This document shows, one piece after another, positions 2,508-55,410 of a stretch of DNA of 64,000 bases. The stretch is from Nitrospira sp. (GTDB taxonomy: Bacteria > Nitrospirota > Nitrospiria > Nitrospirales > Nitrospiraceae), in contig JARFXQ010000012.1 in the NCBI GenBank assembly GCA_029194725.1, positions 62,001 to 126,000 on the forward strand. The letters run 5' to 3'. The notes under the pieces were generated by a model. That model saw only the letters and a list, made by a program, of their open reading frames with translations, searched no databases and had not been told where the DNA came from. The position numbers were made by a program, and so were the translations under genes. Positions within the stretch are counted from its first letter, which is position 1, and every line of letters starts with the position of its first letter.

Positions 2508-2819
2508 CTACAAACTTCGCTTCGAAGAGATCAGAAAGTAGTAGGTTTCGACGCCGGCTTCGAAGACCAGTCTACCCTTCGTATAAATGGGAAATCCAGT
2601 CAGGTTTGTGCTGTGAATAATGTAGAGACGTTCCTTTTTGCTCTGCCGAAACGGACTAGTCGAACGAATCGTTTTTGTGATGGCCACAGCATTGAGAATT
2701 GATTCGGCAATATCCAGCTCAGTGAGACGGTCCGCTTCCATCTCCACACGCGCTTTTTCGCTGAACACATAATGCCCCGCCAACACGGCGCGCTTGATGC
2801 GAACAAGGATATCACTCAT
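2508..2819 (-). CDS. DUF4258-like putative toxin of an mqsRA-type pair
   Basis: A 103-residue protein resembling DUF4258 domains, which share the small RelE/MqsR-like fold. It has an N-terminal helical part (YVFSEKARVEMEADRLTELDI) followed by strands ending in ETYYFLIS. It sits 19 nt before a YgiT-type zinc-finger antitoxin, the usual partner, so the two probably form a type II toxin-antitoxin module with toxin first. Catalytic residues cannot be assigned with certainty. The start ATG at 2819 has no obvious Shine-Dalgarno, but a candidate promoter lies just upstream, so the transcript may have a very short leader. Confidence 0.8.
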   Translation of the reverse strand: MSDILVRIKRAVLAGHYVFSEKARVEMEADRLTELDIAESILNAVAITKTIRSTSPFRQSKKERLYIIHSTNLTGFPIYTKGRLVFEAGVETYYFLISSKRSL

Positions 2820-3037: not shown

Positions 3038-4465
3038 TTAGTTCGGAACGTCCCGGGCACAGCGGAACCCGATCAGATCTCCTGTGTTATCCGAGGAGCT
3101 ATATCGAGCTGCAGACCGAAGAGAGTCTATTGAACGAGATGCGGAGGAGCCACCGCGATACACGTGCTTCTTACCACTCACTGGTCCTTTAGGATTTTGA
3201 GGTGAATCCCCCTGGCTGTAATGGTTCTCGTCATACCAATCCGCAACCCATTCTGAGGCATTGCCTGCCATATCGTAGACGTTGTAGGGACTTTTTCCAC
3301 CTTCGAAAGACCCGATGTTGCTCAGCAATGAATAGTGACTACTACCACCACCGCTACCGTAACTGGCTGGACCGCTGCCGAATAGCCTCCTGAAGGTTCC
3401 GGCGGGACTTCCCCAGGGATAAATGCGCTGGTCAGTTCCTCGTGCAGCCTTCTCCCACTCCGCCTCTGTGGGCAAGCGTTTCCCCGCCCAAGAGCAGTAC
3501 GCTGTGGCATCGTCCCAGTACATGTCAACCACAGGCTTTTGCTCAAGCTGCTTCTCGACCTGGTCTGACCACTGCCTACGATTTGTCTTGTGAAGAAATG
3601 TGGCGAACCGAGCGGTTGTCACTTCATACTGATCGATATAAAAGGCATCCAGATACACCTTATGAGCTGGCCGCTCGTCCTCATGAGCCTCCTTGTCCTC
3701 TTCTCGCGAGCCCATCGTGAACACCCCGGCTGGCACCAGCACCATCGGCGCGCCATCTTTGCCTGTGATTTCTTTGGGCAAGGATGCTCGAATGCCATCT
3801 GGAGCCTGAGTGGCGGTTGCTTCAACAACAATGCCGTTCCCCTCCAAGTAGTCACGCACAGTGCCAGTCGTGACACCCTTCCCATACCGCTGTGCGCCCC
3901 CAATCAACCCCACAACCTGACTGTTGTGCATGATCGGCCCCCCGGAGTTGCCCTCATCGATATTGGCATCAATCGTCACATATCGCCCCTGGCGAGAGGC
4001 GATGCTGCCCTTGATGATAGCCCAATCCCCTGCGCCTCGCGGATGCCCGATGACGATGATGTCCTCTGATCCTGATAGGCTCGTAGTGGTCGCCAAGGGA
4101 AGTGCAGCGACGCCAGAAGGGATATTCTCCTTACCTTGCACAGTCAACAATGCCATGCCGGTCGCTTCGTCACCACCTTCGGCATGTTTCACAGTGGCTC
4201 GTACCTGCCCCTCTTGCCGTGAAAAGAACTGTACTCTTGGTTGAGGGTCACCACTGACGACGTGTGCGGCCGTCACAATGTAGACGACCTCCGAGTCGAG
4301 CTTGACGACGAAACCGGTGCCCACTTTCGTCTTGTTTCCTTCGGTGGCCGTAATCCTGACCACCCCGGACTTTAGGCGTTCGATGTCCTGGGCACCAACC
4401 AGGCTTTCTTCAGCCAGTCCGATCATCAGTATTAAACATGCCGTTATCGCGATTCGTACCTTCAC
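3038..4465 (-). CDS. Secreted trypsin-like / FGE-like two-domain protein, coupled to the TIR gene
   Basis: A protein of 475 residues. I place the start at GTG 4465 rather than further upstream because GTG overlaps the TGA of the TIR gene (GTGA), an AGGAG lies 8 nt before it, and the protein then begins with a clean signal peptide ending near GAQD. The trypsin-like domain shows TAAHV and DEGNSGGP; the catalytic Asp position reads TGMALL. The FGE-like domain (about residues 240-475) is complete: MVLVPAGVFTMGS, RLPTEAEWEKAARG, YPWG, NVYDMAGNASEWVADW, GFRCARD. The two cysteines used by true formylglycine-generating enzymes are replaced (the RCAAR motif reads RSAAR), so it is more likely a C-type-lectin-fold binding module. 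Expected location is the periplasm. It is a paralogue of the product of 760-2049. Confidence 0.87.
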   Translation of the reverse strand: MKVRIAITACLILMIGLAEESLVGAQDIERLKSGVVRITATEGNKTKVGTGFVVKLDSEVVYIVTAAHVVSGDPQPRVQFFSRQEGQVRATVKHAEGGDEATGMALLTVQGKENIPSGVAALPLATTTSLSGSEDIIVIGHPRGAGDWAIIKGSIASRQGRYVTIDANIDEGNSGGPIMHNSQVVGLIGGAQRYGKGVTTGTVRDYLEGNGIVVEATATQAPDGIRASLPKEITGKDGAPMVLVPAGVFTMGSREEDKEAHEDERPAHKVYLDAFYIDQYEVTTARFATFLHKTNRRQWSDQVEKQLEQKPVVDMYWDDATAYCSWAGKRLPTEAEWEKAARGTDQRIYPWGSPAGTFRRLFGSGPASYGSGGGSSHYSLLSNIGSFEGGKSPYNVYDMAGNASEWVADWYDENHYSQGDSPQNPKGPVSGKKHVYRGGSSASRSIDSLRSAARYSSSDNTGDLIGFRCARDVPN

Positions 4466-6021
4466 CGCCTGAACTCCTTCCAAAGCCGATAGGCTCCGAG
4501 ACTTGTCGTGAACACCGTGACGATAATCGTCACAAACACCGCGAGCCACGCATTATGCCACAAGGCATCCAATGCGGTGAGGCTGTGCTGAATCGGAATC
4601 TCGCCCCTCTTGGTACGGACCTGTTTGACCGGGCCATAGCCGACCACATTCATTCCTTTCCCATCAGCCCGCAATGTGACGTGCTCGATCGTGAATTTGT
4701 CCAGCCGCTCTAAGCCGATGGCCTCCCCCTCGTTGAGCGGCACGCTGCCGAGGTGTGGATAATCCGGGAAACTGATTGTCCCCTTGCCGATTAATGCGCT
4801 GACCCGTTCGCCGGATGGGTCTTGCTTGGTAAAGTCCATCGAGACCACGCGTATGTCGCTGAAGAATGACGTCGCCGACTGGCCCAATGCAAAGGTCGGC
4901 GAGAGAATCAGACCGACCGGCAGAGCGGTGACTGCGATCCAGGATGCCTGCTCCGGCAAGGTGACGCGATAGGTTAGCTCATCCTGTTTCCGAAAGGGCA
5001 ATGCGATGTCGCGCAGCTCTACCTGATCCGCGATCAATTTGAACGGCTTATGAATAGACAGCGTGAAAGTTTCCTGCCCTGTGACTTGGAGCGTCACTCC
5101 CTCTTTCTTTCCCCCATGTGTCTCTCGCGTTGCCAATGTGACGTGTGTGCCCGACGCCACCGCTATGGGATCCAGATGAATGGTCTCTGATTCAGCAGCG
5201 TTCAATCCTTCTACCGTCACTCTCGGATGCTGCGTCTGGTCCTTGGCGCCCAATGTAACCTTGTTGGCACGGCTGATGTTCAGCGGCTTCCAAGCCGATG
5301 AGGGAAAGTCATCTGTTTTGACTCGATATTGGGCCGGATCGGCGACCTCGATCGAAGCCGGTTCAAATGAGAGATCAGTGAACTTCTCGATGGCGATGGA
5401 CTGCATATCAAACCCGCTCAGAGTCGTCTCGCCTCGTTCTGTCGTTCCAATCTCGAATTCCACACGCTCCGCGGTCAACTTCACCTGGACCAGCGCAGGA
5501 ATAGGCCACAGCATGAGCCCGATCACGACGACTGCCGCCAGGACGGCCGGGGCGCCGACAAGCCAGACCGGATGAACCCGTTTCCACCAAGACTTCGGGC
5601 CGAATTCAACTCGCTTCGGCGGACTCTTGACGAGTCGTTCAACATCTTTAAGCAGCTGGGAGAACCCAGCATGCTCGGTGCCTGCTTCCCAATCCACAAG
5701 AGATTGAAATGTCCGCTGGGTAAAGCCCAGGGGGATGTCGCTCTCGTTGATCTTGATAGGGAGATATTTGTCCTGCTTCTTGGCTTCGGCGGCTTCCGCT
5801 TGGACCCATTCGGACTCGACGGACTGGTCAGACCACACGACGATCGCGCATTTGGCGGCTGAAAGTTCCTGTCTTATTACTGCGTTGAACGATCCACCGG
5901 TGGGTATGTTGCGGTCCCACCAGACCGACCAGCCGTGCGCCTCCAATGTTATCGCGAATCGTTCGACCCAGGGGCGATCTTTGCTGGAATAGCTGATGAA
6001 GATGTCGCTCATGGCCGGCAC
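4462..6021 (-). CDS. Membrane-spanning TIR-domain protein
   Basis: The N-terminal domain (about residues 4-135) is a bacterial TIR domain: DIFISYSSKD, then GWSVWWDRNIPTGGSF, then SEWVQAEAAEA. The Glu in that last motif (about residue 76) is where TIR NADases carry their catalytic Glu. A membrane span follows (about 152-173), then some 310 residues of probably extracytoplasmic, beta-rich sequence, then a second span near 491-511 and a short basic tail. So the TIR domain faces the cytoplasm while a large domain samples the periplasm. The stop overlaps the start of the downstream protease/FGE gene, implying coupled translation. The start may be GTG 6021 or ATG 6012. NAD cleavage or an immune role is inferred from the TIR family, not shown. 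Confidence 0.86.
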   Translation of the reverse strand: MPAMSDIFISYSSKDRPWVERFAITLEAHGWSVWWDRNIPTGGSFNAVIRQELSAAKCAIVVWSDQSVESEWVQAEAAEAKKQDKYLPIKINESDIPLGFTQRTFQSLVDWEAGTEHAGFSQLLKDVERLVKSPPKRVEFGPKSWWKRVHPVWLVGAPAVLAAVVVIGLMLWPIPALVQVKLTAERVEFEIGTTERGETTLSGFDMQSIAIEKFTDLSFEPASIEVADPAQYRVKTDDFPSSAWKPLNISRANKVTLGAKDQTQHPRVTVEGLNAAESETIHLDPIAVASGTHVTLATRETHGGKKEGVTLQVTGQETFTLSIHKPFKLIADQVELRDIALPFRKQDELTYRVTLPEQASWIAVTALPVGLILSPTFALGQSATSFFSDIRVVSMDFTKQDPSGERVSALIGKGTISFPDYPHLGSVPLNEGEAIGLERLDKFTIEHVTLRADGKGMNVVGYGPVKQVRTKRGEIPIQHSLTALDALWHNAWLAVFVTIIVTVFTTSLGAYRLWKEFRR

Positions 6022-6044
6022 CTAACAGGCAGCGGGAAAAACCT

Positions 6045-6243
6045 CCGTTCATCCTTCGAGAGCCTCAGGACGAACGGAGCGGTCATTAAATATCCTGGCT
6101 TTTCCGTTCGTGCTGAGCTTGTCGAAGCATGAGCCCTTCGATTGACTCAGGACAGGCCTTGTCGAACTCTGCGGTGAGCTACGTCGAACCGCATGAACGG
6201 AACTGCCTGAAATCGCACCCCTTCGACGAGCTCAGAGCGAACG
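6045..6243. repeat. Cluster of REP-like extragenic inverted repeats
   Basis: This intergenic stretch holds several copies, in both orientations, of a motif related to CCGTTCGTGCTGAGCTTGTC / GAAGG. The first unit (6045-6077) has arms CCGTTC...GAACGG around an 11-nt loop. The second (6104-6199) begins with CCGTTCGTGCTGAGC and ends with TGAACGG. The third (6218-6243) reads CCCTTCGACGAGCTCAGAGC followed by GAACGG. Motifs of this kind recur between genes in many unrelated bacterial genomes. Here they separate the TIR gene from the next gene upstream. Confidence 0.75.
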
Positions 6244-6291
6244 GACTCTGATAAGAACTTCTGTGACACAACACTAGGCCTTGATCTTCCG

Positions 6292-7050
6292 CTACCGTGC
6301 TGTCGGACGGTGAAAGAAGCGCACGGTCTGTCGTAGGGGCTGACTGGTATCGAGGAAATACCCGTCGCAGACTAATGAATACTGGCCTTCCGGCGCAGTC
6401 CCAGCATCCCAGCGCACGGTGAACGGCCGCCCTCCGGGAAGTCTGCGGAACACTTGCGTCATGAGCTCGGCCTGCTCTCTGCCTCGAAGGACCTTGCAGG
6501 AAAGCCGCGCATCCCCGTTGGTCTTCATGGTGAACAGATACCCGCCGATCTTGTCGGGAGGCTGTGCATGATAGAAGATCGCCGGCGCGATCTCCTCATT
6601 TTCGGCCGGTGTTTCCCTTCCGAGGCGAACCAATACCCCCAACTCATACATGTTGAGTTTCTGATCCAATTGTTGCAACACAGCCCCTGTCGGCCAGGTA
6701 TATTCATTCACCGACTTGGCTTGCCATCCCTTCGCCGGTTTCACCCGGTCGAGCCAATAGTAGAGCCGGTAGTCCTGCTCGCGAACGGTAAGATGAACGG
6801 GAGTCTGGCTCTGGAGATAGAACCCGACCCGGAGTTGATCGGGCAGCTGGGTGGCAGGTTCCTGATAGTCGGCCAGAACGGAGATGACTTCAATGTCGTA
6901 GCCGGAGACCGGTTTCGGTTTGACCCCTTCGAAACGGTCCCCACGATTTTGGTAATCCAGATTTGAATCGGCCCACAGAGGCAGGGGCAAAATGAGCCAC
7001 ACAAGGAGGAGGAAATCTCGCGTGAGTGAGCGGGCCATGTTGGCACCCAT
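6292..7050 (-). CDS. Secreted protein of unknown function
   Basis: The 252-residue protein starts with a signal peptide (hydrophobic core LLLVWLILPLPLWA, cleavage probably after WADS). The rest is beta-rich with no motif I recognise. The C-terminal part (PFTVRWDAGTAPEGQYSLVCDGYF) resembles the Ig-like end of FlgD-type domains, but this is weak. It contains two Cys residues in the mature part (SCKVL and LVCDG) that could form a disulfide. It lies alone between the repeat cluster and a small secreted protein and could be expressed on its own. The start is ATG 7050 or 7038; neither has a good Shine-Dalgarno. Confidence 0.7.
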   Translation of the reverse strand: MGANMARSLTRDFLLLVWLILPLPLWADSNLDYQNRGDRFEGVKPKPVSGYDIEVISVLADYQEPATQLPDQLRVGFYLQSQTPVHLTVREQDYRLYYWLDRVKPAKGWQAKSVNEYTWPTGAVLQQLDQKLNMYELGVLVRLGRETPAENEEIAPAIFYHAQPPDKIGGYLFTMKTNGDARLSCKVLRGREQAELMTQVFRRLPGGRPFTVRWDAGTAPEGQYSLVCDGYFLDTSQPLRQTVRFFHRPTAR

Positions 7051-27823: not shown

Positions 27824-28855
27824 TCACGATAACGGTCGGCTCACGGTAACAGTATACTGCTTTATACTTATTTGATCCTGCGCCGTCACGATAATGTTCA
27901 CTGGTAGGCTTGCCCCAGGCCCCAATTGGACGGACGTTTGACCTGTCGGCGTCCCCGCCCCGACGATCACCGAACCCAGCGCCATCACGGCATTCGGATC
28001 GGACTTGGTCGCAGAAATAGTCACGGTCCCGTTGGCAGCTGCCACACCCACCGTATAGTTTTCCGTATCAGGGGAAAACGCCGGAACCAAGGTGCCGGCG
28101 GACACGGTCAAGGCCGAGAGTTTGTTGTCGCTGGACGGCGCAGCTCGGTTCACAACGATGCGGTATGTGTCGGAATTGCCGTTCGGTGCGATGACGATGA
28201 TCGACACTGGTGTGGCTGACCCCTGTGCACCCAGCTGAATGGTCGCCCGCCCTGTTGCTTGTCCCGGCCCAGGGTTGGTGATGGAGCCGGACAAGACGGC
28301 ACTTGGATCGTCCTTGGTCGCGGAGACCGTCACGCTCGCGACATCCATACCTACATCCACCGTGTAATTCATGGTGCCTGGAGCAAAGGCGGGAACCAGG
28401 GTGCCGGGTGACACCGTCAAGGCTGATAGATCTGTATTACCCGATAACGCCGCTTTGTGGACCGTGATGGTATAGGTGCTCTGACTTCCGTTCGTCGACG
28501 TCACTATGATCGTGATATCTTTGCTCGATCCTGGCGCTCCGAGTGTCACCGTAAGACTTTGAGTCGCTGTTCCAGCGATCGTGACCGTCGCCGTGCTGTC
28601 TTGAGGGGTGGCCGTCACCGTAACAGCGCCGACCGCCGGTGACACATTGGCTCCATAAGTGACGGTGTTGCTCGAAAAAGCAGGCTGAAGCGTCCCAGGA
28701 CTGATCGTCAAACTGGCGAGAGGCACATCTGGCCCCTGCAAGACCGACGCGGAATCACCGCAACCAAAGGAAAGCAAACCCATGATGGCAAGAATGATAA
28801 GGGCGAAATATTGTCCAATGATGGAGAACATGCGTCTCATGGTAATAGCGTTCAT
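27824..28855 (-). CDS. Lipoprotein with three cadherin-like beta-sandwich domains
   Basis: From ATG 28855 the 343-residue product has a lipoprotein signal (LIILAIMGLLSFGC). The mature part is three repeats of about 90-105 residues, each opening like LTISPGTLQPAF and closing with a strand such as YTITVHKA (cadherin-like beta-sandwich, PF12733-type). Such domains are found in surface and adhesion proteins. It is the last of five consecutive paralogues on this strand. The convergent response-regulator gene ends 39 nt away. The exact start is not fixed by a clear ribosome site. Confidence 0.82.
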   Translation of the reverse strand: MNAITMRRMFSIIGQYFALIILAIMGLLSFGCGDSASVLQGPDVPLASLTISPGTLQPAFSSNTVTYGANVSPAVGAVTVTATPQDSTATVTIAGTATQSLTVTLGAPGSSKDITIIVTSTNGSQSTYTITVHKAALSGNTDLSALTVSPGTLVPAFAPGTMNYTVDVGMDVASVTVSATKDDPSAVLSGSITNPGPGQATGRATIQLGAQGSATPVSIIVIAPNGNSDTYRIVVNRAAPSSDNKLSALTVSAGTLVPAFSPDTENYTVGVAAANGTVTISATKSDPNAVMALGSVIVGAGTPTGQTSVQLGPGASLPVNIIVTAQDQISIKQYTVTVSRPLS

Positions 28856-28993
28856 TTCTTGGCGATGTCTGGAACGATCGCTAGCTCTGGTCAACCCAAA
28901 CGGTAGGTAGAGAGGCTACGAGAGGGTTCCGATCTCTGTAAGAGCTGAGCAGGGTCTTGGACTATATTCAATTCTTACTGATGAGGTCAAGAC

Positions 28994-29015
28994 TTCTAAT
29001 CGAGTTCTAATCGAG
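28994..29015. repeat. Direct repeat of TTCTAATCGAG
   Basis: Two perfect, adjacent copies (28994-29004 and 29005-29015) lie about 140-160 nt upstream of the start of the three-domain lipoprotein gene, in a 300-nt gap without genes. It could be an operator or a replication slip. Confidence 0.45.
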
Positions 29016-29156
29016 AGGTCGTGGACCGATGCGCGTACGACCAGGATACGTGCGGTGACAGGGTGTCCAGGGAGGAGCTACTTCTTCCTGGTCACCGATG
29101 GTTAGATGGAAAGTGGCATGGGGAACTGGAGAACTGTAGGCGGATTTTGTTTCACC

Positions 29157-31409
29157 CTAGGGCGCTTTGTTGACAGTGACGGTATAGAGGCTCTGACTTG
29201 CCATATCCTGTGCGATCACTGTAATCGTCACCACCTCTGTGGTCGGTCCAACCCCCAATGTGACCGTCACTTGACCGCCTGGGACACCCGGCGCCGCGAT
29301 CACCGAACCCAAGGTGGACATCGTGGCCTGCGGATCAGCTTTAGTCGCAGAGATAACTACACTACTAACGCTGTTATCGACATCCACCGTGTAGCTTAGC
29401 TGGTCTGGGTTAAAGACAGGAGTCAAGCCCAGAGCCGCGGAGCCTGATGACACCGTCAAGTCCAACAGTTTGCTGTTGCTGGAGGCTGCTTGGTTCACGG
29501 TGATCGTGTAAGTCTCTTGGCTGCCGTTGGGAGCAGTCACGATAATCTCAATTGCGGTCGGTCCAGGAACCTCAAGGTCGATGTCACGAGCCTGGCCTGA
29601 GCTGGTTCCCTGTCCATTGATCATCATGCTCGCATTTGTATCCGAAAGTGTCGCGGTTACTGTGACGCTGGTGATCTCGGTTGCCACGTTCACCGTATAG
29701 CTCGTCGTGCTCGCATTAAAGGTGGGGGCCAAGATGCCCGGCGATACGGCCAGGCTCTCGAGCTTGTTATTCCCGCTGAGTGCGGCACGAGTGACGTTTA
29801 TGGAGTAGGTTTTCGTGGTGCCGTTCTGCGCGGTTACCACTATAGCAATAAAGGTGGCTGAACCAGAGGTGGGCAACGGAGTGGGCTGGGTCTGTCCTGA
29901 GGTGGCAGGTTGTCCATTCACGGTCATGCTTGCCGTGGCATCTTGCAACGTCGGCGTCACTGTCATGTTGCTTGGGTTGCCCGGTAAAATGCTCGGCAAA
30001 TTCACTGTGTAGCCTTCTGTGCCAGCGTTGAAGACTGGGGTTAACGTGCCCGGTGAAATGTTCAAGGCCGACAGAAAATTGTTTCCGTTGAGTGCGGCAC
30101 GAATGACGGTCACTGTATATGTTTTTTTGGTGTTATTTTGCGCGGTCACTACGATGCTGATAGCGGTGTTCGCGCCAGGGGCGGGCAACGGAGTGGGCTG
30201 GGCCTGTCCTGAGGTGGCAGGTTGTCCATTCACGGTCATGCTTGCCGTGGCATCTTGCAACGTCGGCGTCACTGTCATGTTGCTTGGGTTGCCCGGTAAA
30301 ATGCTCGGCAAATTCACTGTGTAGCCTTCTGTGCCAGCGTTGAAGACTGGGGTTAACGTGCCCGGTGAAATGTTCAAGGCCGACAGAAAATTGTTTCCGT
30401 TGAGTGCGGCACGAATGACGGTCACTGTATATGTTTTTTTGGTGTTATTTTGCGCGGTCACTACGATGCTGATAGCGGTGTTCGCGCCAGGGGCGGGCAA
30501 CGGAGTGGGCTGGGCCTGTCCTGAGGTGGCAGGTTGTCCATTCACGGTCATGCTTGCCGTGGCATCTTGCAACGTCGGCGTCACTGTCATGTTGCTTGGG
30601 TTGCCCGGTAAAATACTTGGCAAATTCACCGTGTAGCCTTCGGTGCCGGCGTTGAAGGGCGGGTCTAACGTGCCTGGTGAAATCGCCAGGCTCTGCAAGA
30701 AGTTATTGCCTGATTCTCCGCGGTTTACAGTGACGTGGTAGGTTTTCTGACTGCCGTTCTGAGCGGTCACCACTATATCGATAGGGGTGCTTGAGCCCGT
30801 CCCACCTAACTGTATGGGTTGGCTCTCTTCACCCGAGTTCGTAGCCTGTCCATTCACCGTCACCGTCGCAGCAGAGTCTTGAAGAGTGGGCGTCACCGTG
30901 ACGCTGTCGACATTGTTGGCAACATCGACCGTATAGTTCTGTGTGTTCGCGTTGAATCCGGGAGCCAGGGTGCCGGTCGACACGATCAGGCTCAGCAACG
31001 AATTATTTCCGGCTAAACTCGCTCTCTTGAGAAGCACGATATAGGTACGGGAATTGTTGCTTGATTCCGACACGACGATACTTACGGAAGTGGTCGACCC
31101 TTCGGGACCAAGGGTAATGGTGCTGCTCGTCGTGGCCTGACCATTGATCGTGATGGTATCGCCTGCTACGGCAGGTTGCGCCGTGAGCCTCACACTTGTA
31201 ACCTCGCGGGTGAGATCGACGGTGTATTGAGTTGTCTCACTGGTAAAGGCCGGTTGGAGTGTTCCGGGGGTGACCGTCAGGCTGGCGAGCTCGGCCACTG
31301 GGTTCACGCTTGCCGAGCCCATACAGCCTGAGACGCTGAAGCTGATCGCGATGATAAGAGCAGCGGTTAACCGTTGTCCTGCCAACGTCAGAATACCCTT
31401 CATGGTCAT
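29157..31409 (-). CDS. Lipoprotein with seven cadherin-like beta-sandwich domains
   Basis: About 750 residues from ATG 31409 (an in-frame ATG at 31433 is possible). The signal ends with the lipobox VSGC. Seven repeats follow, opening LASLTVTPGTL, LLSLIVSTGTL, LQSLAISPGTL, LSALNISPGTL (twice), LESLAVSPGIL and LLDLTVSSGSA. Repeats 4 and 5 are identical because the DNA is duplicated (29892-30614). The first domain is closely similar to the first domain of the 34036-35952 protein (QPAVAGDT and SIVVSES). Probably an outer-membrane or surface lipoprotein. The upstream 245 nt carry a palindrome and a candidate promoter. Confidence 0.85.
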   Translation of the reverse strand: MTMKGILTLAGQRLTAALIIAISFSVSGCMGSASVNPVAELASLTVTPGTLQPAFTSETTQYTVDLTREVTSVRLTAQPAVAGDTITINGQATTSSTITLGPEGSTTSVSIVVSESSNNSRTYIVLLKRASLAGNNSLLSLIVSTGTLAPGFNANTQNYTVDVANNVDSVTVTPTLQDSAATVTVNGQATNSGEESQPIQLGGTGSSTPIDIVVTAQNGSQKTYHVTVNRGESGNNFLQSLAISPGTLDPPFNAGTEGYTVNLPSILPGNPSNMTVTPTLQDATASMTVNGQPATSGQAQPTPLPAPGANTAISIVVTAQNNTKKTYTVTVIRAALNGNNFLSALNISPGTLTPVFNAGTEGYTVNLPSILPGNPSNMTVTPTLQDATASMTVNGQPATSGQAQPTPLPAPGANTAISIVVTAQNNTKKTYTVTVIRAALNGNNFLSALNISPGTLTPVFNAGTEGYTVNLPSILPGNPSNMTVTPTLQDATASMTVNGQPATSGQTQPTPLPTSGSATFIAIVVTAQNGTTKTYSINVTRAALSGNNKLESLAVSPGILAPTFNASTTSYTVNVATEITSVTVTATLSDTNASMMINGQGTSSGQARDIDLEVPGPTAIEIIVTAPNGSQETYTITVNQAASSNSKLLDLTVSSGSAALGLTPVFNPDQLSYTVDVDNSVSSVVISATKADPQATMSTLGSVIAAPGVPGGQVTVTLGVGPTTEVVTITVIAQDMASQSLYTVTVNKAP
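29892..30614. repeat. Tandem 312-bp duplication inside a lipoprotein gene
   Basis: Copy one is 29892-30203, copy two 30204-30515, and a partial third runs to about 30614. By eye the full copies are identical, including third codon positions. 312 bp is 104 codons, one beta-sandwich domain, so the frame is kept. Confidence 0.85.
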
Positions 31410-31473
31410 GTTGCTCCACTTTTCGTAATGCATGGGCCTCTCGATCCCTGAAAAGGTCAGCCGACAGATTCGG

Positions 31474-31515
31474 ATGGTATGAGAGGAGTCGAGATCGGTC
31501 CAGACCTACTTAGGT
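31474..31515 (-). promoter_or_regulatory. Candidate promoter with adjoining palindrome (seven-domain lipoprotein)
   Basis: On the minus strand TGGACC (31502-31497), a 17-nt spacer and TACCAT (31479-31474) form a candidate promoter. Directly upstream lies ACCTAAGTAGGT (31515-31504), an imperfect palindrome, in the place of an activator site overlapping the -35. Confidence 0.45.
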
Positions 31516-31654
31516 AAGGCGAAGTACGCTGAAGGTATCAGCCAATCTGCTGGTCGAGGCAAGAGGTGGGATCAGGAGCCATGAGGATGTGAATGGCACA
31601 AGAGGAATGGGGCGACCCTCCGACGGTCTTGCCCACATCGGCGGTGTTCTGAGA

Positions 31655-33601
31655 CTACGGAAATCCCGGGGCTACGTTGTCAATGTGCACGTTCAGGGAC
31701 GGACTTGGGAGAGACTCAAGGCCGGCTGCATTGGTCACAGTGCTGGTAACAGTAATATCGTATTCACCGCTAGGCAACGGATTCGTCGGTGTGAGGGTGT
31801 TGGTTCTCTCATCAAACCCTTCCTTGACTTTAACCCCGTCTATATAGAGGTTCGGCGTTTCTCCCGCCTCAGGCTGGGCCACTGTGAAGCTCGGTGTTAA
31901 GTCGTTGGTGATGTTGTCGGCATCCTGGCCAGGGTTGAATCCGGAATCACTCTCCGGCGTCAGATCCGGTGCGCTTGCCGGCGCCGGTGGTGCCGTTGGC
32001 GCCGCTCGGTTGACGTTGATGCTGTATGTCTTGGGACTACTATTCGGAGCAGTCACAGTAACCGACAGGGGTGTGCTGATCCCTGCTCCATTCAGCGGAA
32101 TAGTGGCCTGGCCTGTTGCGACACCTGTCCCGGCCGACAGGTCCCCGGACATCACGGCATTCGCGTCGACTTTGGTTGCAGAGACATGAATGCTGGTAAC
32201 GACGGTCCCGACGTTCACCGTGTATTCCATGGTGTTTGCACTAAAGGCGGGAGCCAAGGTGCCGGGCGACACCGTCAACGTTGACAGATTATTGTTGCCC
32301 CCGAGCGCCTCGCGGATGGCGTCGATTTGGTATGTTCTAGGGTTTCCATTCGGAGCGACCACTGTAATGTCAATTTCCGTAGTCGAGCCGGGTGGCTCTA
32401 ATGGAATCGGGCGGGACTGGCCCGAGCCGGCTCCTTGACCATTAATCATCACGGTTGCCCCTGCATCCTGCAAGGTAGCGGTCACGGTGAGATTGTCGAT
32501 GTTACTACCGAGGCTCACCGAGTAGCCGGTCCGATTCGTCCTGAATGCGGGAGCCAGGGTGCCTGGCGACACGGCCAGACTCCGTAGATTGTTATTCCCG
32601 CCAAGGGCGGCACGTATGACGTTGAGGGAGTAGATTCTCTGGGTGCCGTTCTGGGCGATTACAGTAATGTTGATAACCGTGGTCGAACCAGTCCCATTCA
32701 ATGTAATGGTTTGAGCCTGTCCGGAGTCTGTGGCTCGCCCATTCACGGTCATGTTAGCCGTGGCATCAGCCACTGTTGGCCGTACCGTCACGTTGGTCAC
32801 ATTGCTTGCCACATTCACGGTGTAACTGGTTGTACTTGCTCTGAAGTTCAATGTTCCCTGTGAAATCGTTAATCCTCGCAAGTTATTATTGCCTGATGCC
32901 CCGCGATTGATGGTAACCCTGTATGCCTTCTTACTCCCGCTCGGGCGCGTGATGTCTATCGACACAGGTGTGGCCGACCCCGTGCCGCTGAGCTGAACGG
33001 TCGCTTGCCCCGACGCAGTTCCTGCCGGGACGGTGACCGAACTGATCTGCATGACCGAATTTGGGTCAGACTTTGTGGCCGAGATGGTCACGCTGGTGAC
33101 AGACGGACCGACATCATTGACCGTATAGTCAAGCGTGTCCTTATCGAATGGGGCGGGGGCCAGGGTTCCGCTCGAAACAGAGAGGGCCTGTAACGAATTA
33201 TCCTCAACGTCCCGCTTGACAAGAACGGTGTAGGACTTCGAACCACCTCCTGCGTCTGTTCCCGTAACGACGATACTTACGGACTTCTCCACCCCCGGCG
33301 AGTCGAGAGTGATGGTCCGACTCGTTGTCTGTTGGTTGTCGATACGTATGATGTCTCCGTCTACTCGGGGGCTTGCGGTGATGGTCATAATCGAGACATC
33401 GCTGGCGAGCTGAACCGTGTAGTCAGTTGTTGCGGGGGCAAAAGATGGCCGCAGAGTTCCAGCGGAGACCGACAGGTTCCCGAGTTCCACCGGTTCGGTT
33501 GCCGTCGGTGCATCCCCGCAGCCAGAGGCGAGCAAGCCGAGCAGGATCAGAACGACGGCGGTTAGATACTGTCTCACGGCGGTCACAGTGCGCATGATCA
33601 T
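31655..33601 (-). CDS. Lipoprotein with five cadherin-like domains and C-terminal Ig-like domain
   Basis: 648 residues from ATG 33601, with a signal ending LLASGC. Five beta-sandwich repeats (opening LGNLSVSAGTL, LQALSVSSGTL, LRGLTISQGTL, LRSLAVSPGTL, LSTLTVSPGTL) are followed by a Pro-rich linker (APTAPPAPASAP) and a different last domain with DLTPESDSGFNPGQDADNIT, as in bacterial Ig-like domains of large adhesins (BapA type). It is the only one of the five paralogues with that ending. The 5' leader shares the TCTAGAGAAAGAGA block with the 34036-35952 gene. Confidence 0.84.
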   Translation of the reverse strand: MIMRTVTAVRQYLTAVVLILLGLLASGCGDAPTATEPVELGNLSVSAGTLRPSFAPATTDYTVQLASDVSIMTITASPRVDGDIIRIDNQQTTSRTITLDSPGVEKSVSIVVTGTDAGGGSKSYTVLVKRDVEDNSLQALSVSSGTLAPAPFDKDTLDYTVNDVGPSVTSVTISATKSDPNSVMQISSVTVPAGTASGQATVQLSGTGSATPVSIDITRPSGSKKAYRVTINRGASGNNNLRGLTISQGTLNFRASTTSYTVNVASNVTNVTVRPTVADATANMTVNGRATDSGQAQTITLNGTGSTTVINITVIAQNGTQRIYSLNVIRAALGGNNNLRSLAVSPGTLAPAFRTNRTGYSVSLGSNIDNLTVTATLQDAGATVMINGQGAGSGQSRPIPLEPPGSTTEIDITVVAPNGNPRTYQIDAIREALGGNNNLSTLTVSPGTLAPAFSANTMEYTVNVGTVVTSIHVSATKVDANAVMSGDLSAGTGVATGQATIPLNGAGISTPLSVTVTAPNSSPKTYSINVNRAAPTAPPAPASAPDLTPESDSGFNPGQDADNITNDLTPSFTVAQPEAGETPNLYIDGVKVKEGFDERTNTLTPTNPLPSGEYDITVTSTVTNAAGLESLPSPSLNVHIDNVAPGFP

Positions 33602-34035
33602 GGGGTAGTAATCTCTTTCTCTAGAAGCGTGAAGCGTCAGGCCCATCATGTATGGCAGTCCTGAGTAAAGCTGGCGGATATTACGGGAGAGCTAAAGATT
33701 GGTCCATACCTACGTAGGTATAAGGCCGATTAGCTAACGTACCTACTAGGCATAGGGCAAATTAGCGAGTGTGCCTATAGCCGATCTTCCCGGTGAGATC
33801 GGGGCTCTTGTTCGAGAGATGGGGAACCAGCATGAGTCAGCTGAAGGGGTCCAGAATCGGCGTCAGGGCTCAAGGCGTGAACTATAACAGGTCAGGTTAG
33901 GACTCTGTTGTGTGCTCTTCGGGAGGGGCTGAGAGGAAATCAGACCGGTCGCGCGACGGTTCGCAGGTCCGTCGATGTCAAACGGGCCTCTGCTCTGCTC
34001 TGTTGGACTCCTTAAATTCGATAGCGCTATCGTTC
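33602..34035. other. Regulatory gap between lipoprotein genes
   Basis: About 430 nt without a coding frame of merit. It holds the promoter/palindrome at 33678-33721, a second related half-palindrome (ACCTACTAGGC near 33740) and the shared leader block just before the 33601 start. Confidence 0.6.
33678..33721 (-). promoter_or_regulatory. Candidate promoter with perfect 16-bp palindrome (five-domain lipoprotein)
   Basis: On the minus strand TGGACC (33706-33701), 17-nt spacer, TAATAT (33683-33678). The perfect palindrome ATACCTACGTAGGTAT (33706-33721) abuts the -35. Same layout as at 31474-31515. This arrangement suits a dimeric activator that touches the polymerase at -35. Confidence 0.55.
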
Positions 34036-35952
34036 CTAGAAGAGCGCCCGGGTGATGGTAATGCTGTATGGCTTTGGGACTCCATTCGCTGCTATGACGG
34101 TGATCGACACAATTCTTGGTGTCAATGGCACGAGTTGATCAAAGGTCGCTTGGCCTGTGGCGACCCCTGTCCCAGCCGTGACGTCACCCGACATCACGGC
34201 ACCTGGATCAGACTTGGTCGCGGAGACTGTCACGCTCGCGACAGCGGCTGGAACATTCACCATGTAGGCTGTCGTGCTTGGAGCAAAATCAGGAACCAAG
34301 GGGCCTCCCGTTACTGTCAAGGCCGCGAGATTGTTGTCACTTGAGGGCGCCGCTCGGTTCACGGTGAGGCCGTAGGTCTTGCTGATTCCATTCGGGGCAG
34401 TCACCGTGATTGTCACTGGGGTCGACGTCCCCGGCGCACCGAGTTGAATGGTCGCTTGACCGGTCGCTTGCCCCACCCCGGGATCAGTGATCGAACCGGA
34501 GAGGACCGCATTCGGGTCGGACTTGGTCGCGGAGACCGTCACTTGGGTAACGTCGGTCGCCACGTCTACAGCATAGGCCAAGGTGCCTTCGGCAAAGGCA
34601 GGAGCCAGGGTGCCTGGTGTCACCGTCAACGCCGACAGATTGTTGTCGCTCGACTGCGCCCTAGTGACGGCGACGACATATGGGTTCCGACTCCCGTTTT
34701 GAGCAGTCACAACTATATTGATAACGGTGGTTGAACCAGGTCCGTTCAACGGAACAGGTCGGCCTTGGCCCGAGTTGGTGGCTTGTCCGTTCACCGTCAT
34801 CGTCGCAGCTGGATCTGAAAGCGTGGGAGTCACTGTGACGCTTCCGACATTGCTGGCCACAGCGACTGTATAGTCCTGTGTGTTCGCGTTGAATGCGGGG
34901 GTGAGGGTGCCTGGCGATACGGTCAAACCCTGAAGATTATCGTTTGCGCCAAGGGCAGCACGAATGACATTGACGGAGTAGGTTTTCTGAGTGCCGTTCT
35001 GGGCGGTCACTACGATATTGATAAAAGTGCTCGAACCAGGTCCGGGCAACGGAGTGGCTTGAGCCTGTCCGGAGGTGGCTGGTTGTCCATTCACGGTCAT
35101 GCTGGCCGTAGCATCTTGCAATGTCGGCGTCACCCTGACGCTGGTTACGTTGCCCGGCAACGTGGCCGGCAAATTGACCCTGTAGCCGACTCCGCTGGGA
35201 GTGAAGTCTGGGCTTAACGTTCCCGGCGACACGGTCAGGTTCTGTAAGTTGTTATTGCCCGATACTCCCCGACTCACCGTGACAGTGTAGATTTTGGTGC
35301 TGTTGTTCTGGGCGGTCACGACGATCGTGATCGCGGTGTCTTGGCCGGCAGGGTTGAGGGTAATGGTGCGAGCCTGTCCGGACGTAGTGGCTTGTCCATT
35401 CACGGTCATCTTCGCAGCAGGATCCGAAGGCGTGGGGGTCACCGTGACGATTCCGACATTGTTGGCGACATCGACGGTATAGGTTTGCAAGTTCGGATCG
35501 AATGTAGGAGCCAAGGTCCCTGGCGACACGGTCAAACTCTGTAGCGAGTTGTTCCCTGTCAGGCCGGCTCTCACCAGAAGGACTGTGTAGGTCCTCGAAT
35601 TGGTGTTCGATTCCGACACGACGATGCTCACCGGCGTCGTCGTTCCTGCCGCGCCCAGCGGAACAACGCTGCTTGTCGTGGTCTGGCCATTGATCGCCAC
35701 CGTATCCCCCGCCACGGCCGGTTGAGCGGTGATCGTCACACTCGTGACGTTGCTGGTGAGATTGACATTGTATTCGGTGGTGCCGCCGGTAAAGGCCGGC
35801 TGGAGCGTCCCGGGGGAGACCGTCAAGCTGGCGAGTTCGACCACTGGGTTGACGGTCGCTGAGTCTCCGCAGCCCGAGCCGAGTAAGCCGAGTACGATCA
35901 GAAAGGCGGCGGTCAGATACCGCCGCGCGACGGTCACGGTAGGCATGGTCAT
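34036..35952 (-). CDS. Lipoprotein with six cadherin-like beta-sandwich domains
   Basis: A 638-residue product with a signal ending LLGSGC. Six repeats open LASLTVSPGTL, LQSLTVSPGTL, LQNLTVSPGTL, LQGLTVSPGTL, LSALTVTPGTL and LAALTVTGGPL. Its domains 5-6 are close copies of domains 2-3 of the 35990-37006 protein (shared ATKSDPNAVLSGSI and VMSGDVTAGTGVATGQATF), and domains 1-4 resemble the seven-domain paralogue, so it looks like a mosaic. It starts 37 nt after the 35990-37006 gene stop and is presumably in one transcript with it. Confidence 0.85.
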   Translation of the reverse strand: MTMPTVTVARRYLTAAFLIVLGLLGSGCGDSATVNPVVELASLTVSPGTLQPAFTGGTTEYNVNLTSNVTSVTITAQPAVAGDTVAINGQTTTSSVVPLGAAGTTTPVSIVVSESNTNSRTYTVLLVRAGLTGNNSLQSLTVSPGTLAPTFDPNLQTYTVDVANNVGIVTVTPTPSDPAAKMTVNGQATTSGQARTITLNPAGQDTAITIVVTAQNNSTKIYTVTVSRGVSGNNNLQNLTVSPGTLSPDFTPSGVGYRVNLPATLPGNVTSVRVTPTLQDATASMTVNGQPATSGQAQATPLPGPGSSTFINIVVTAQNGTQKTYSVNVIRAALGANDNLQGLTVSPGTLTPAFNANTQDYTVAVASNVGSVTVTPTLSDPAATMTVNGQATNSGQGRPVPLNGPGSTTVINIVVTAQNGSRNPYVVAVTRAQSSDNNLSALTVTPGTLAPAFAEGTLAYAVDVATDVTQVTVSATKSDPNAVLSGSITDPGVGQATGQATIQLGAPGTSTPVTITVTAPNGISKTYGLTVNRAAPSSDNNLAALTVTGGPLVPDFAPSTTAYMVNVPAAVASVTVSATKSDPGAVMSGDVTAGTGVATGQATFDQLVPLTPRIVSITVIAANGVPKPYSITITRALF

Positions 35953-35989
35953 GAGGAATTAGTCTCTTTCTCTAGAGGTGTGAAGCGTT

Positions 35990-37006
35990 CTATAAGAGTG
36001 CTCGGATGATCGTAATGGTGTATGACTTGGAGGCTCCATTCGGAGCCGTGATGATAATCGACACAGGTCTGGGTATCAATGGGACGAGTAGAAACGTTGC
36101 TTGGCCTGTTGCGACCCCTGTCCCAGCTGTGACGTCACCGGACATCACGGCATCTGAATCAGACTTGGTCGCAGAGACCGTCACGCTTGCAACATTGGCT
36201 GGAACGCCCACCTGGTAGGCTGTCGTGCTTGCAGCAAAACCAGGAACCAAGGAGCCTCCCGTTACCGTCAAGGCCGACAGATTGTTGTCGCTTGATGGCG
36301 CCGCTCGGTTCACCGTGATGCTGTAGGTCTTGCTGTTTCCATTCGGGGCGGTCACAGTGATGATCACAGGCGTCGACGTCCCCGGCCCACCGAGCGGAAT
36401 GGTCGCCTGACCGGTGGCTTGCCCCACCCCGGGATCAGCGATCGACCCGGACAGGACCGCATTCGGGTCGGACTTGGTCGCGGAGACGATCACTTCTGCG
36501 ACGCTGGTCGCAACATTCGCTGTGTAGGTCAAGGTGCCCGGCGCAAAGGCAGGATCCAAAGTGCCTGGCTCCACCGTCAACGCCGACAGGTTGTTATTGC
36601 TCGATTGGAGTCTCGTGACGGCGACCGCATAGGTGCTTTCCTGGCCCGTCTGTGACTCTAAGACGATGGAAACGATTGTGGTTGTTCCCGGCGCGCCTAA
36701 CGGCACGGACCTCCCCTGCCCGGCAGAGCTTGGGGCCCCATTGATTGTCATGGCTGTCGTGCTATCCTTGGGAGTGGCTGTCACGGTGACGGTGGTCGCC
36801 GATGTCGGCGCATCGACCGTATACTCGGTAATATTGCCGGAAAACGCTGGTTGGAGGGCGCCGGGAGTGACAGCCAAGCTGGAGAGCGGTGCCTGAACTT
36901 CATCCGAGATCGAGGCGGAGTCTTTGCAGCCATAGGCGCCAACGCCGATTGCGGAGATAAGGACGGCGACGAACCGTTGTCCAGGGTAGATATGATTCCG
37001 TCTCAT
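35990..37006 (-). CDS. Lipoprotein with three cadherin-like beta-sandwich domains
   Basis: 338 residues from ATG 37006, with a hydrophobic signal ending near VGAYGC. Three repeats open LSSLAVTPGAL, LSALTVEPGTL and LSALTVTGGSL. First of the five-gene array in transcription order. Starts further upstream (37069) are in frame but would put 21 polar residues before the signal peptide. A GGTCC..CTAC element about 95 nt upstream resembles those before the paralogues, though weaker and without the 17-nt spacing. Confidence 0.82.
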   Translation of the reverse strand: MRRNHIYPGQRFVAVLISAIGVGAYGCKDSASISDEVQAPLSSLAVTPGALQPAFSGNITEYTVDAPTSATTVTVTATPKDSTTAMTINGAPSSAGQGRSVPLGAPGTTTIVSIVLESQTGQESTYAVAVTRLQSSNNNLSALTVEPGTLDPAFAPGTLTYTANVATSVAEVIVSATKSDPNAVLSGSIADPGVGQATGQATIPLGGPGTSTPVIITVTAPNGNSKTYSITVNRAAPSSDNNLSALTVTGGSLVPGFAASTTAYQVGVPANVASVTVSATKSDSDAVMSGDVTAGTGVATGQATFLLVPLIPRPVSIIITAPNGASKSYTITIIRALL

Positions 37007-37273
37007 GTCATGCCGGCCTGTTTCATTCGATGTTGTGAGTGGAGAACTGTTCATGCCTATGAGCCTCATCCAGGGACACCGATATTACAGGAGGGTAATC
37101 GGTCCGGTCTACCTCTACTCGCGCAAGGGCGTTCGGATGCTGGAAAGTGGGACCGTTCTCCTGATGGTCCAGCCTCGGATCGACGAGTGACCATCGGATT
37201 CTACAGAGCAGCAAGAACGTCGATATTTCAGCACCACGAGGCTGGGGGTCTCAATAAGACAGATACTGATGGT

Positions 37274-49332: not shown

Positions 49333-52300
49333 TCAAAGCTCGGTCGAAAAGGATGAACCACCTTGGTATGAACGATATAGGCTGGCGCCCTTATCGCCGT
49401 AGCTTTCATAGAAGTGTTCGAACACCGCCGAACATTTCTGCTTGTACAGATCAGGAGTGTAGGCCCGCGGGAGGCCTTGATCCAGCATATCCTCGATGGC
49501 CAGTTTCACGCGTGACCGCGCGGCGACTGTTTGCCGCCAGTTCAGCACGAGCAATTGTTTCAACTTCTCCAGCAGGTCTTTGGCTATCTTCTTGAGCTCG
49601 GCCCGCTCGACATGACTCAACTCAGGAGCCGGACGTGTGAGGATGTCGAAGATCACCAATTCCTCTTCGGACAGGTTCTCACGGACATGCCGTTCCTGCT
49701 CTTCGTTTAGACTGCGGCTGAGGGCCAGCAATTCCTTGAACAGTTCGTCGATGTTCCGGCTACCTACGTTGTAGGATTCGATCAGTTCCTCGAACTTGGT
49801 AAGATAGTCGGCTCTGGTCCGGTTGAGGCGAACCAGCTTGTCGAGCTGCGACCGGATTGCTGTTTTGAGTTGCTCCAAATCAATGTTCTTGGTTTTGGAT
49901 TTTCCAAATCGTTTGGCCAACGCCTCGAAGTCGATCTTGGTCAGATCAATCGCCCCATGGCCAGCCTTTCCTTGTGAGATATGAAAACCATCCGCCGCGA
50001 CGGACTCATCCAGAATCTTCTTGAGGTCGGCCATGACGGCTGAAATATCCGCCGGCCCCTCGCCCGTGCGTTCACGGATGCTTTCAGCGATGGTCGTGAG
50101 ACAGGCGACCCGTGAGGCAAATTCCAACACAGAAGGGTCCGGCTTCACGGCTTGGAACAGCGTCTGCGCCCAACGTTCCTGAGCCAAGAAGTCTTTCCGG
50201 AGCGGGTCCGGGGAAATGAGGTGTTCGATCGCGTCGGCAATCTTCGTGAGACGATCCATGCTTCCGGCTGTAATCCGCTCAATCGCCTCCAGATTCACGC
50301 CATGGGCCTGACAAAAGGCTGTGGCATCGGCAATCGCCTGGCGGAGGCTTTCAACCAGCTTCTGCTTGTCCCGAATCGGTTGTTCTCCGCCTTTGCCTTT
50401 GGCATAGATCGCCAGCGCTTTCTCCAATGACTCGAAGACGTTCGCATAGTCCACGATTAAGCCGCTCTGCTTGCCGGGAAACGCGCGGTTGGCCCGGGCG
50501 ATGGTCTGCATCAGGGTATGGTTCCGCATCGGCTTGTCGAGATAGATAGTCGAGCAGCTTGGCGCATCGAAGCCCGTCAACCACATCGCGCAGACGAATA
50601 CTAGGCCCAGCGGATCGGTAGGGTCTTTGAACTGCTCGTCTAACGACTCGTCGTTCATCCGCTTCCGATGCGGGACAATATCAAGACCGCGCTTCTTCAT
50701 TTGCTCAATCTCGTTCTGCCCTGGCGAGACGATCAGCGCCATGTCAGTCGTTCGGAGCACGTCGAGCCGGACTTTTAGTTCTCGGATTCGGTCCGGGTTG
50801 GCATCTTTCGCCTTGTACGTCGTGAGCCTCGCCAATTCCTGCTCCACGCGCTTCTGCTCGGACTGCCAGTGCTTCCGTACCTTGTCGTGCATCCGTAGCG
50901 CTGTGGCTTTGTCGAGGGAAATCACCATCGCCTTACCCTGAAAGCCGCGCCCAAGGAAGTGCTGAACAATGTCTTTCGCAATCGTCTCCAACCGGTCGTG
51001 GCGAGTGAGAATTTGATATTGCCGGCCCAACTCTCGCTCCAGACGCTCTTCTTGCTCCTCATCCAACCCTGCCGCTTCGATCATGTTGTAGATGTCGTCG
51101 TTAAGGTTCGGATTCTCCAGACGCAATTCCGGCGTCCGATTTTCATAGAAGAGCGGCACCGTCGCGCCATCCTCGACGGACTGTTGGAAGTCATAGATGG
51201 AGACATACTCACCAAACACTTCCCGCGTCCGCTCTTCGTCCGCGATCAGCGGCGTGCCGGTGAAGGCCAGGAAGAGTGCCCGCGGCAATGCCGAGCGCAT
51301 ATTCATCGCCAGGGTGTCGTATTGGCTCCGGTGGGCTTCGTCGGTCAGCACGATCACGTCGGATCGATCACAGAGCAGTTCGGAAGTCTGGAACTTGTGA
51401 ATCAGCGTAAAGACATAGCGGTGATTCTCGCTGAGGAGTTGACGAAGTTGCGCGCCGTTTTGCGCGTGGCACACATCACTTTCACTCTCGCTGTCCGCGC
51501 CGCAGGCCTTGAAGGTTTTGGCGATCTGATCGTCCAGCTCCACACGGTCTGTCACCACGACGAACGTCCAGTTGCCGGGAACCTTGCGCAGGATCTTCTG
51601 GGTGAAAAACACCATCGCGAGACTTTTGCCGGATCCCTGTGTCTGCCAAAAGACACCGCCCCGTCCATGGCCTTGTTTGCGGGCAGCCAACGTCGCGGCA
51701 ATAGCATTGTTTACACCGAGGAACTGGTGATTCTGGCCCAGCACTTTCACCAATCCTGCCTTATGCTCAGAAAAGAGGGTGAAGTTTTCCAACAGGTCCA
51801 GCAGCCGTGATGGCTCACAAGTGCCACGCAACATGACTTCCAAAGACACGCGGCGCGGTTCGTCCTCACGCTCAATCCGTTTCCACTCGAAGAACCGTTC
51901 CCAATCAGCGGTCAGGGACCCCACACGGCTTTCCGTGCCGTTGGAGGCGATCATCAGCCCATTGAACCAAAAGAGCTGTGGTATGTCGGACTTGTAACAG
52001 GTGAGATTATCGTCGAAGGCTTGCTGTGCCGGCACGCCGGGCTTCTTCAGCTCGATCACGACGAGCGGGAGGCCGTTCACGAAGGCGACGAGATCAGGCC
52101 GTCGCGTGTAAAGCGGTCCCGTGACGCTGAGCTGACCGACGACGAGAAAATCATTGACGCCAGGATTATCCCAATCAACGACGCGGACCCGCTTTGGCTC
52201 CTGGCCTCCACTCTTGGTATCCGTGACGGACACTTCAATGCCATTTTTGAGGAACCGGTACACTTCTCGATTCGCAGCCGCGAGGCTCATCGCCGAACGA

Positions 52301-54230: not shown

Positions 54231-54235
54231 GAAGC

Positions 54236-55408: not shown

Positions 55409-55410
55409 AC

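Follow-up and report, generated by a model that had tools for sequence, protein, structure and literature searches.

Known bacterial TIR defenses mostly sense invaders inside the cell. In the insect Toll-Spaetzle pathway, a membrane receptor whose TIR domain is cytoplasmic acts downstream of secreted recognition proteins and serine proteases. Among the closest bacterial systems are putative conflict systems of multicellular bacteria diversified by diversity-generating retroelements (DGRs), whose targets, in the parts of the study considered here, are mostly STAND or vWA/MoxR proteins (PNAS 2024; PMC10907252). The ternary conflict systems built from MoxR-vWA/VMAP and iSTAND components, as set out in the relevant portions of the original account, include trypsin domains in the effector position that are mostly inactive (eLife 2020; PMC7159879), and the available text of a further report describes nuclease-trypsin pairs in antiviral immunity in which the protease activates its partner (Science 2025; PMC12799240). 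The locus reported here, from Nitrospira, lies in a 64,000-nucleotide stretch of DNA that was analyzed as a whole (hereafter the window). It combines a membrane TIR receptor with secreted trypsin-like proteins and a further secreted protein, and we read this conserved operon, with a probability of about 60%, as an envelope-spanning conflict or immune receptor.

Organization of the operon

The operon occupies the minus strand of the window and runs, in the order of transcription, from geneA through the TIR receptor and trypsin-FGE no. 1 to trypsin-FGE no. 2. The product of geneA (6292-7050), directly upstream of the receptor, is a secreted protein of ~248 aa with a signal peptide-like start. 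The receptor gene (4462-6012), delineated by its ORF, Pfam matches and hydropathy, starts with an ATG, an in-frame GTG also being present at 6021, and codes for a 516 aa protein of TIR-TM-ECD-TM architecture. Trypsin-FGE no. 1 (3038-4465) is best read from the GTG at 4465, which gives a secreted protein of 475 aa with the signal peptide MKVRIAITACLILMIGLAEESLVGAQ, and trypsin-FGE no. 2 (760-2049), the 'constant' partner, codes for a secreted protein with a trypsin-like and a degenerate FGE-like domain; the signal peptides of geneA and both trypsin-like proteins were judged by eye and hydropathy. The initial annotation had described a two-gene layout, viz., a membrane TIR protein translationally coupled to a secreted protease/FGE-like protein. 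Both of its ORFs lie where it had placed them, on the minus strand, and Pfam confirms their TIR_2, Trypsin_2, and FGE-sulfatase domains, but the operon has at least three components (geneA, receptor, and trypsins), geneA and trypsin-FGE no. 2 having been missed. The coupling site (4462-4478) was described exactly: the receptor stop TGA (4462-4464) and the partner start GTG overlap as GTGA, with an AGGAG 8 nt ahead. An overlap or a spacing of a few nucleotides recurs at 20 of the 25 junctions compared, with real gaps at L023 and at four loci from a different genus, and dN/dS is low across all four operon genes (0.08-0.32, i.e., purifying selection); these observations together argue that the arrangement is not due to chance.

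Several features around these genes deserve mention in their own right. The gap between geneA and the receptor measures 270 nt in the window, with several REP-like GAGCTCAGG/CCTTCGA repeats at 6040-6260, and just 18-27 nt in most relatives. Between the two trypsin-FGE genes lies a small ORF of 103 aa (2508-2819, minus strand) that looks like a DUF4258-type toxin by eye, a Pfam search at 0.01 matching nothing, and a short frame terminating just upstream of it, near 2400-2487, by eye resembles a zinc-finger (YgiT/MqsA-like) antitoxin. Elsewhere in the window, also on its minus strand, lies a run of five large lipoprotein-like ORFs built from tandem cadherin-like repeats (LSxLxVSxGTLxPxF; 27824-37069), a repeat that is fused to a TIR domain in another locus (L021:15065-17041), as well as a type I restriction-modification system whose HsdR, HsdS, and HsdM-like genes are interspersed with small accessory genes (49333-57021). 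The genome that contributed the window has ten TIR_2 and 22 FGE-sulfatase matches in all, and has relatives among Nitrospira MAGs.

The membrane receptor and geneA

Residues 4-121 of the receptor match TIR_2 (Pfam, 8.9e-25; domain at 5650-6012). They are followed by the basic stretch KSWWKRVHP, a first TM segment (TM1, 5488-5544; Kyte-Doolittle 2.53), the ECD (4567-5487), a second TM segment recognized by hydropathy (TM2, 4510-4566), and a short basic tail, RLWKEFRR. The two hydrophobic segments thereby flank a loop of ~305 residues, and the basic residues on the inner side of both indicate a cytoplasmic TIR domain and C-terminal tail with a periplasmic loop, in agreement with the earlier proposal of a TIR half inside and a further domain outside. 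The putative catalytic glutamate proposed along with it is E73 (codon at 5794-5796) in the motif W69-V70-x-x-E73; it is invariant in 15/15 relatives and, in the alignment, in register with the glutamate of the AbTIR WTNYE motif. More broadly, E73, W69, and the residues of the BB-loop region are invariant among TIR-bearing members. By sequence, the domain has the TIR fold with the catalytic-type glutamate that characterizes TIR NADases, and it would putatively cleave NAD+. The receptor gene evolves with a dN/dS of 0.14-0.27.

Matches of the receptor in PADLOC and, by sequence, in the PDB are confined to the TIR domain, and the ECD has no family match in Pfam or NCBIfam, by which it would be set apart as a new conserved protein family. 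Its AlphaFold2 model is all-β and of low confidence (pLDDT 49.7), and a Foldseek search with that model returned nothing with E below 0.001. For geneA, too, no family was found in Pfam, NCBIfam, PADLOC, or the PDB. Given that a homolog stands in the same position, directly upstream of the receptor, in all complete loci, and that its dN/dS is 0.08-0.18, geneA would likewise be a new conserved protein family. Its AlphaFold2 model (mean pLDDT 57.6) is good over the C-terminal ~165-245 and poor over the N-terminal half, with Foldseek/VIA matches (Z up to 10) to GbpA domains, GH2, and fibronectin-type sandwiches; with low confidence, these suggest that the C-terminal part is an Ig-like β-sandwich, and they say nothing finer. 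The poor quality of the ECD and geneA models counts against the reading as an envelope conflict receptor.

Trypsin-like and FGE-like partners

Trypsin-FGE no. 1 contains a Trypsin_2 domain (Pfam, 6.1e-19) and an FGE-sulfatase domain (4e-56). The loci contain from one to four trypsin genes, whose C-termini vary (FGE-like, Sel1 repeats, and others). The trypsin-like assignment of the initial annotation stands as regards the fold and the catalytic His and Ser, which are present in the trypsin-like domains of the window and in 52 of the 54 distinct domains compared. The canonical Asp is where it falls short: Gly occupies this position in trypsin-FGE no. 1 and in 46/54 domains, and Asp in 4, as scored at the canonical position, which leaves room for a displaced Asp. 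Because of this replacement, the protease activity of these domains is putative and uncertain, and the lack of the canonical Asp in most of them counts against an envelope conflict receptor. The FGE-like label was likewise apt for the fold, that of C-type lectins, and less so for the chemistry. Both active-site cysteines of FGE (C336/C341 of SUMF1) are absent from trypsin-FGE no. 1 in the alignment, and from 18/18 domains that allowed the motif to be located; we therefore reject an active formylglycine-generating enzyme. With these cysteines missing wherever they could be placed, the domain is best read, from its sequence, as a binding domain of the C-type-lectin fold.

Trypsin-FGE no. 2 is found at the same place in ten other loci (L021, L022, L062, L064, L065, L067, L070-L072, and L074). 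Its C-terminus is conserved across genomes and is constant over the segment that corresponds in relatives to the DGR variable region (VR). Two of these loci display further rearrangements. In L021 (9524-9970), the first gene after the receptor consists of a signal-peptide start fused in frame with the C-terminal FGE half, the trypsin part having been deleted, with an intact trypsin gene coming next; in L022 (6723-8198), a frameshift just before the catalytic GHSGGP splits trypsin-FGE no. 1, which might reflect decay or a MAG error.

The resemblance of the trypsin-like domains to HtrA/MarP proteases, the secretion of the partners, and the purifying selection on all genes are features that might also be seen in envelope quality control or stress signaling of the DegS/RseA kind. 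Here, the trypsins would sense misfolded envelope proteins, the FGE-like domain would bind peptidoglycan or surface sugars, and the TIR domain would be a non-lethal scaffold or signaling module. The invariance of the TIR glutamate speaks against such a module, as do features of distribution and diversification that are given below, and we consider a quality-control function unlikely.

Distribution and domain swaps

The order geneA-ECD-trypsin is found at 22 loci in 20 genomes, from Nitrospirota and, in two cases, from a proteobacterial sample; three more loci cut by contig ends (L067, L069, and L074) agree as far as their sequence goes. The full-length relatives of the receptor include those of two Nitrospira MAGs (83% and 65% identity) and one in a genome labeled uncultured proteobacterium (28-30% identity), all flanked by a geneA homolog immediately upstream and by genes for secreted trypsin-like proteins immediately downstream. 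The search for the pair in other genomes, which the initial annotation had proposed as a check, thus finds the gene order kept at identities as low as ~30% in the genome labeled proteobacterium, as well as in a second Nitrospirota family; its refuting condition, a pair confined to close relatives, does not hold. With the geneA profile, more loci were recovered in this second family (from the same order) and in two additional genomes belonging to the class of the L023 genome; two loci with geneA and no detectable partners (L116, and L105 at a contig edge) were excluded from the support. The ECD profile found its target in 16 of the 175 Nitrospiraceae genomes, i.e., the presence is patchy, and, among 398 genomes of the phylum of the L023 genome, in that genome itself only, suggesting that spread outside Nitrospirota is rare in this sample. 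A fixed gene order at 22 loci with such patchy presence counts for an envelope conflict receptor, and the patchiness would be unexpected of a housekeeping quality-control system.

The TIR domain is present in 20/22 loci; the remaining two (L114 and L115) encode a TM-ECD-TM protein without TIR, together with geneA and trypsins. The same ectodomain occurs with its two TMs behind an nSTAND1 NTPase (E 7e-84) in L068 (G058:C61, 6877-11147). There, the upstream gene, which overlaps that for the nSTAND1-TM-ECD-TM protein, codes for a TIR protein, and no geneA or trypsin is found nearby, making this two-gene locus a second system built on the ectodomain. L106 encodes a single 1197-residue fusion of geneA, trypsin, and FGE behind a TM segment, adjoining genes for a MoxR-type AAA protein and a DUF4062 protein. 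This fusion is the C-terminal part of a large membrane protein broken by an apparent transposase gene (L106:616-9782, G107:C3). One-gene TIR-TM-FGE proteins occur in relatives and in Proteobacteria, and a TIR-...-TM-FGE protein is encoded in the window's own genome. The arrangement is consistent in L068, L106, and the TIR-TM-FGE proteins, the FGE or geneA-trypsin part lying outside and the TIR or STAND part inside, which supports signaling from the envelope to the TIR domain. The swaps in L068 and L106, the TIR-less loci, and the TIR-TM-FGE proteins count for an envelope conflict receptor. Large ORFs are also seen upstream of geneA: that in L102 (1763-7321) codes for a protein of ~1850 residues with α/β-hydrolase, CHAT (caspase-like), and TPR-S domains (Pfam), with similarly large ones in L103 and L104 and one at the contig end in L101.

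The TIR-less loci also show that TIR is not indispensable, and in this respect count against an envelope conflict receptor. Since they keep geneA, ECD, and trypsins, they could be taken to mean that the TIR domain has no catalytic activity and a role in assembly alone, with the operon acting mainly as a secreted protease cascade. Such a cascade sits poorly with the loss of the canonical Asp from most trypsins, and a silent TIR with the invariance of E73, W69, and the BB-loop-region residues in TIR-bearing members, and we hold this alternative to be improbable.

Diversification of the presumed recognition gene in relatives

DGR targeting of this operon in relatives, which did not feature in the initial annotation, is most complete in G026 (99% complete), where a whole DGR lies inside the operon (locus L064) and targets the FGE domain of the trypsin-FGE gene. 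The VR forms the 3' end of that gene (L064:10778-10892) and is followed by genes for bAvd (L064:10994-11347; PF22296, 6e-19) and an RT (L064:11351-12490; PF00078, 7e-22) and by the TR (L064:12462-12576), which pairs with the VR over 115 nt. The two differ at TR adenines in 22/23 instances (9 A>G, 8 A>T, and 5 A>C), the signature of a DGR. G107 has a DGR on another contig (L118), its Avd and RT being homologous to those of G026. The TR of this element corresponds to the VR of a geneA/(ECD remnant)/trypsin-FGE locus, the two differing 16 times at A and once at non-A; the receptor of that locus has decayed, and an intact operon is present elsewhere in the genome (L070). The operon of G006 retains two Avd-like remnants, no RT being found in that genome. 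G026 and G107 are the only two carriers of a DGR whose TR matches the operon's trypsin-FGE: the TRs of G073, G118, G131, and G461 did not match their own operon loci at the sites examined and showed many non-A mismatches, a result that is weak for two of them, as the G118 operon contig is truncated and the G461 operons are without FGE.

In nine trypsin-FGE sequences, the columns at the A-rich codons of the TR have a mean entropy of 2.30 bits, versus 0.44 for the rest, an excess matched in none of 20,000 shuffles; without the two TR-matched genomes, the values are 2.00 and 0.50 bits. The same genomes also carry an FGE gene that stands alone, a few kb upstream, with 96% identity across the VR-equivalent segment, implying that the variability of the VR is not forced by the fold as such. 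In the comparison of the window with L063, geneA has a dS of 0.34 and the receptor one of 0.68, against 3.0 in trypsin-FGE no. 1, a disparity which suggests that this recognition gene alone was exchanged as a cassette. Neither DGR diversification of the FGE domain nor preferential replacement of the recognition gene would be expected of housekeeping quality control. Together with the Avd remnants, the VR entropy and the dS contrast, the targeting in G026 and G107 counts for an envelope conflict receptor.

We also searched for a DGR in the window's own genome (78% complete) and found none: no RVT_1/RT was detected, nor any TR or second copy of the VR beyond a 29-nt paralog match, and the window itself has no Avd or RT homolog. 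The VR-equivalent segment of its trypsin-FGE no. 1 (3059-3160) has lost an invariant Trp and Pro and has acquired small indels; this gene is probably a fixed derivative whose VR segment is no longer under DGR control. The lack of RT and TR in this genome and the restriction to two TR-matched carriers count against an envelope conflict receptor.

DGR-diversified lectin-fold proteins serve adhesion in other bacteria, and Nitrospira grows in aggregates. The operon might accordingly mediate cell-cell or surface recognition rather than phage defense, e.g., kin discrimination or adhesion to partners in flocs and biofilms, with a TIR output following contact with non-self. The outward-facing receptor would suit this, as would the relationship in sequence of the FGE-like domain to the Treponema variable protein TvpA (PDB 2y3c), a lectin-fold protein of the DGR type. 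The contexts with TIR, nSTAND1, CHAT, and MoxR point instead to conflict systems, going by the relevant portions of earlier surveys (PMC7159879, PMC10907252), and we regard surface recognition as distinctly unlikely.

A model for signaling across the envelope

For the envelope conflict receptor that we favor, we propose the following scheme. The FGE-like domain of trypsin-FGE no. 1, of C-type-lectin fold and DGR-diversified in relatives, would be the recognition element and would bind something foreign at or outside the envelope, the presumed trigger. The bound protein, together with the constant trypsin-FGE no. 2 and the secreted, Ig-like geneA product, would then change the ECD through direct contact or cleave it by a putative proteolysis. 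The ECD would relay this change via its two TM helices, upon which the cytoplasmic TIR domains would come together and either consume NAD+ or produce a nucleotide signal, leading to growth stop or cell death. A role in phage defense would be a presumed outcome of this scheme; against the conflict reading counts that no phage-defense family was matched at useful strength. One may go further and see a secreted lectin-trypsin, rewritten by a DGR, that acts with a secreted Ig-like protein to trigger a membrane TIR, i.e., a system functionally analogous to the Toll pathway whose variable part is antibody-like; this we advance tentatively, as possible with the odds somewhat against it. If the conflict reading holds, the operon would provide an ecologically important nitrifier (the nitrite-oxidizing Nitrospira) with an outward-facing, evolvable immune receptor. 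Besides geneA and the ECD as two candidate new conserved families, it yields a clear substrate-partner hypothesis for trypsin-like proteins and a setting in which to probe the function of DGR diversification directly.

Comparison with known systems

In the open-licence literature, to the extent that its text was accessible, we came across neither geneA nor a membrane TIR receptor bearing this ECD, and no case in which a DGR targets the secreted trypsin partner of such a receptor. Like the antiphage TIR NADases (Thoeris and others), the receptor has a TIR fold with a glutamate of the W-x-x-x-E type. Unlike in Thoeris, it is a two-TM protein with a periplasmic domain, and ThsA is not among its neighbors, the conserved ones being geneA and trypsins at 22/22 loci; with a PADLOC ThsB match at only E 1e-6, we reject the pair as a Thoeris system.

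The closest resemblance is to the DGR-diversified conflict systems, in which, according to the parts of that study considered here, Avd, RT, and TR likewise diversify an FGE/C-type-lectin domain at loci with TIR, trypsin-like, nSTAND1, or MoxR components, and one target is predicted to be secreted (PMC10907252). Those parts describe no Nitrospira system, and the present operon differs from the ones described there in that the target is a secreted trypsin-FGE protein, paired with a membrane TIR receptor, a novel ECD, and a conserved secreted geneA product. With the ternary systems, as far as the relevant portions go, the operon shares a domain vocabulary (TIR, trypsin, FGS, and STAND), and the geneA-trypsin-FGE protein of L106 adjoins a MoxR gene (PMC7159879). 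It differs from them in its new core families and in the absence of MoxR, vWA, and VMAP genes, none of which is among its conserved neighbors; a MoxR-type AAA gene is found only near the fused form in L106. The antiviral nuclease-trypsin pairs, in the available text, resemble it in joining a trypsin-like protein to an effector, the latter being a nuclease there and a membrane TIR receptor here, with secreted trypsins (PMC12799240). The insect Toll-Spaetzle pathway is offered only as an analogy and not as a claim of homology for the receptor ectodomain or geneA, and the bacterial output would probably be NAD consumption rather than transcription.
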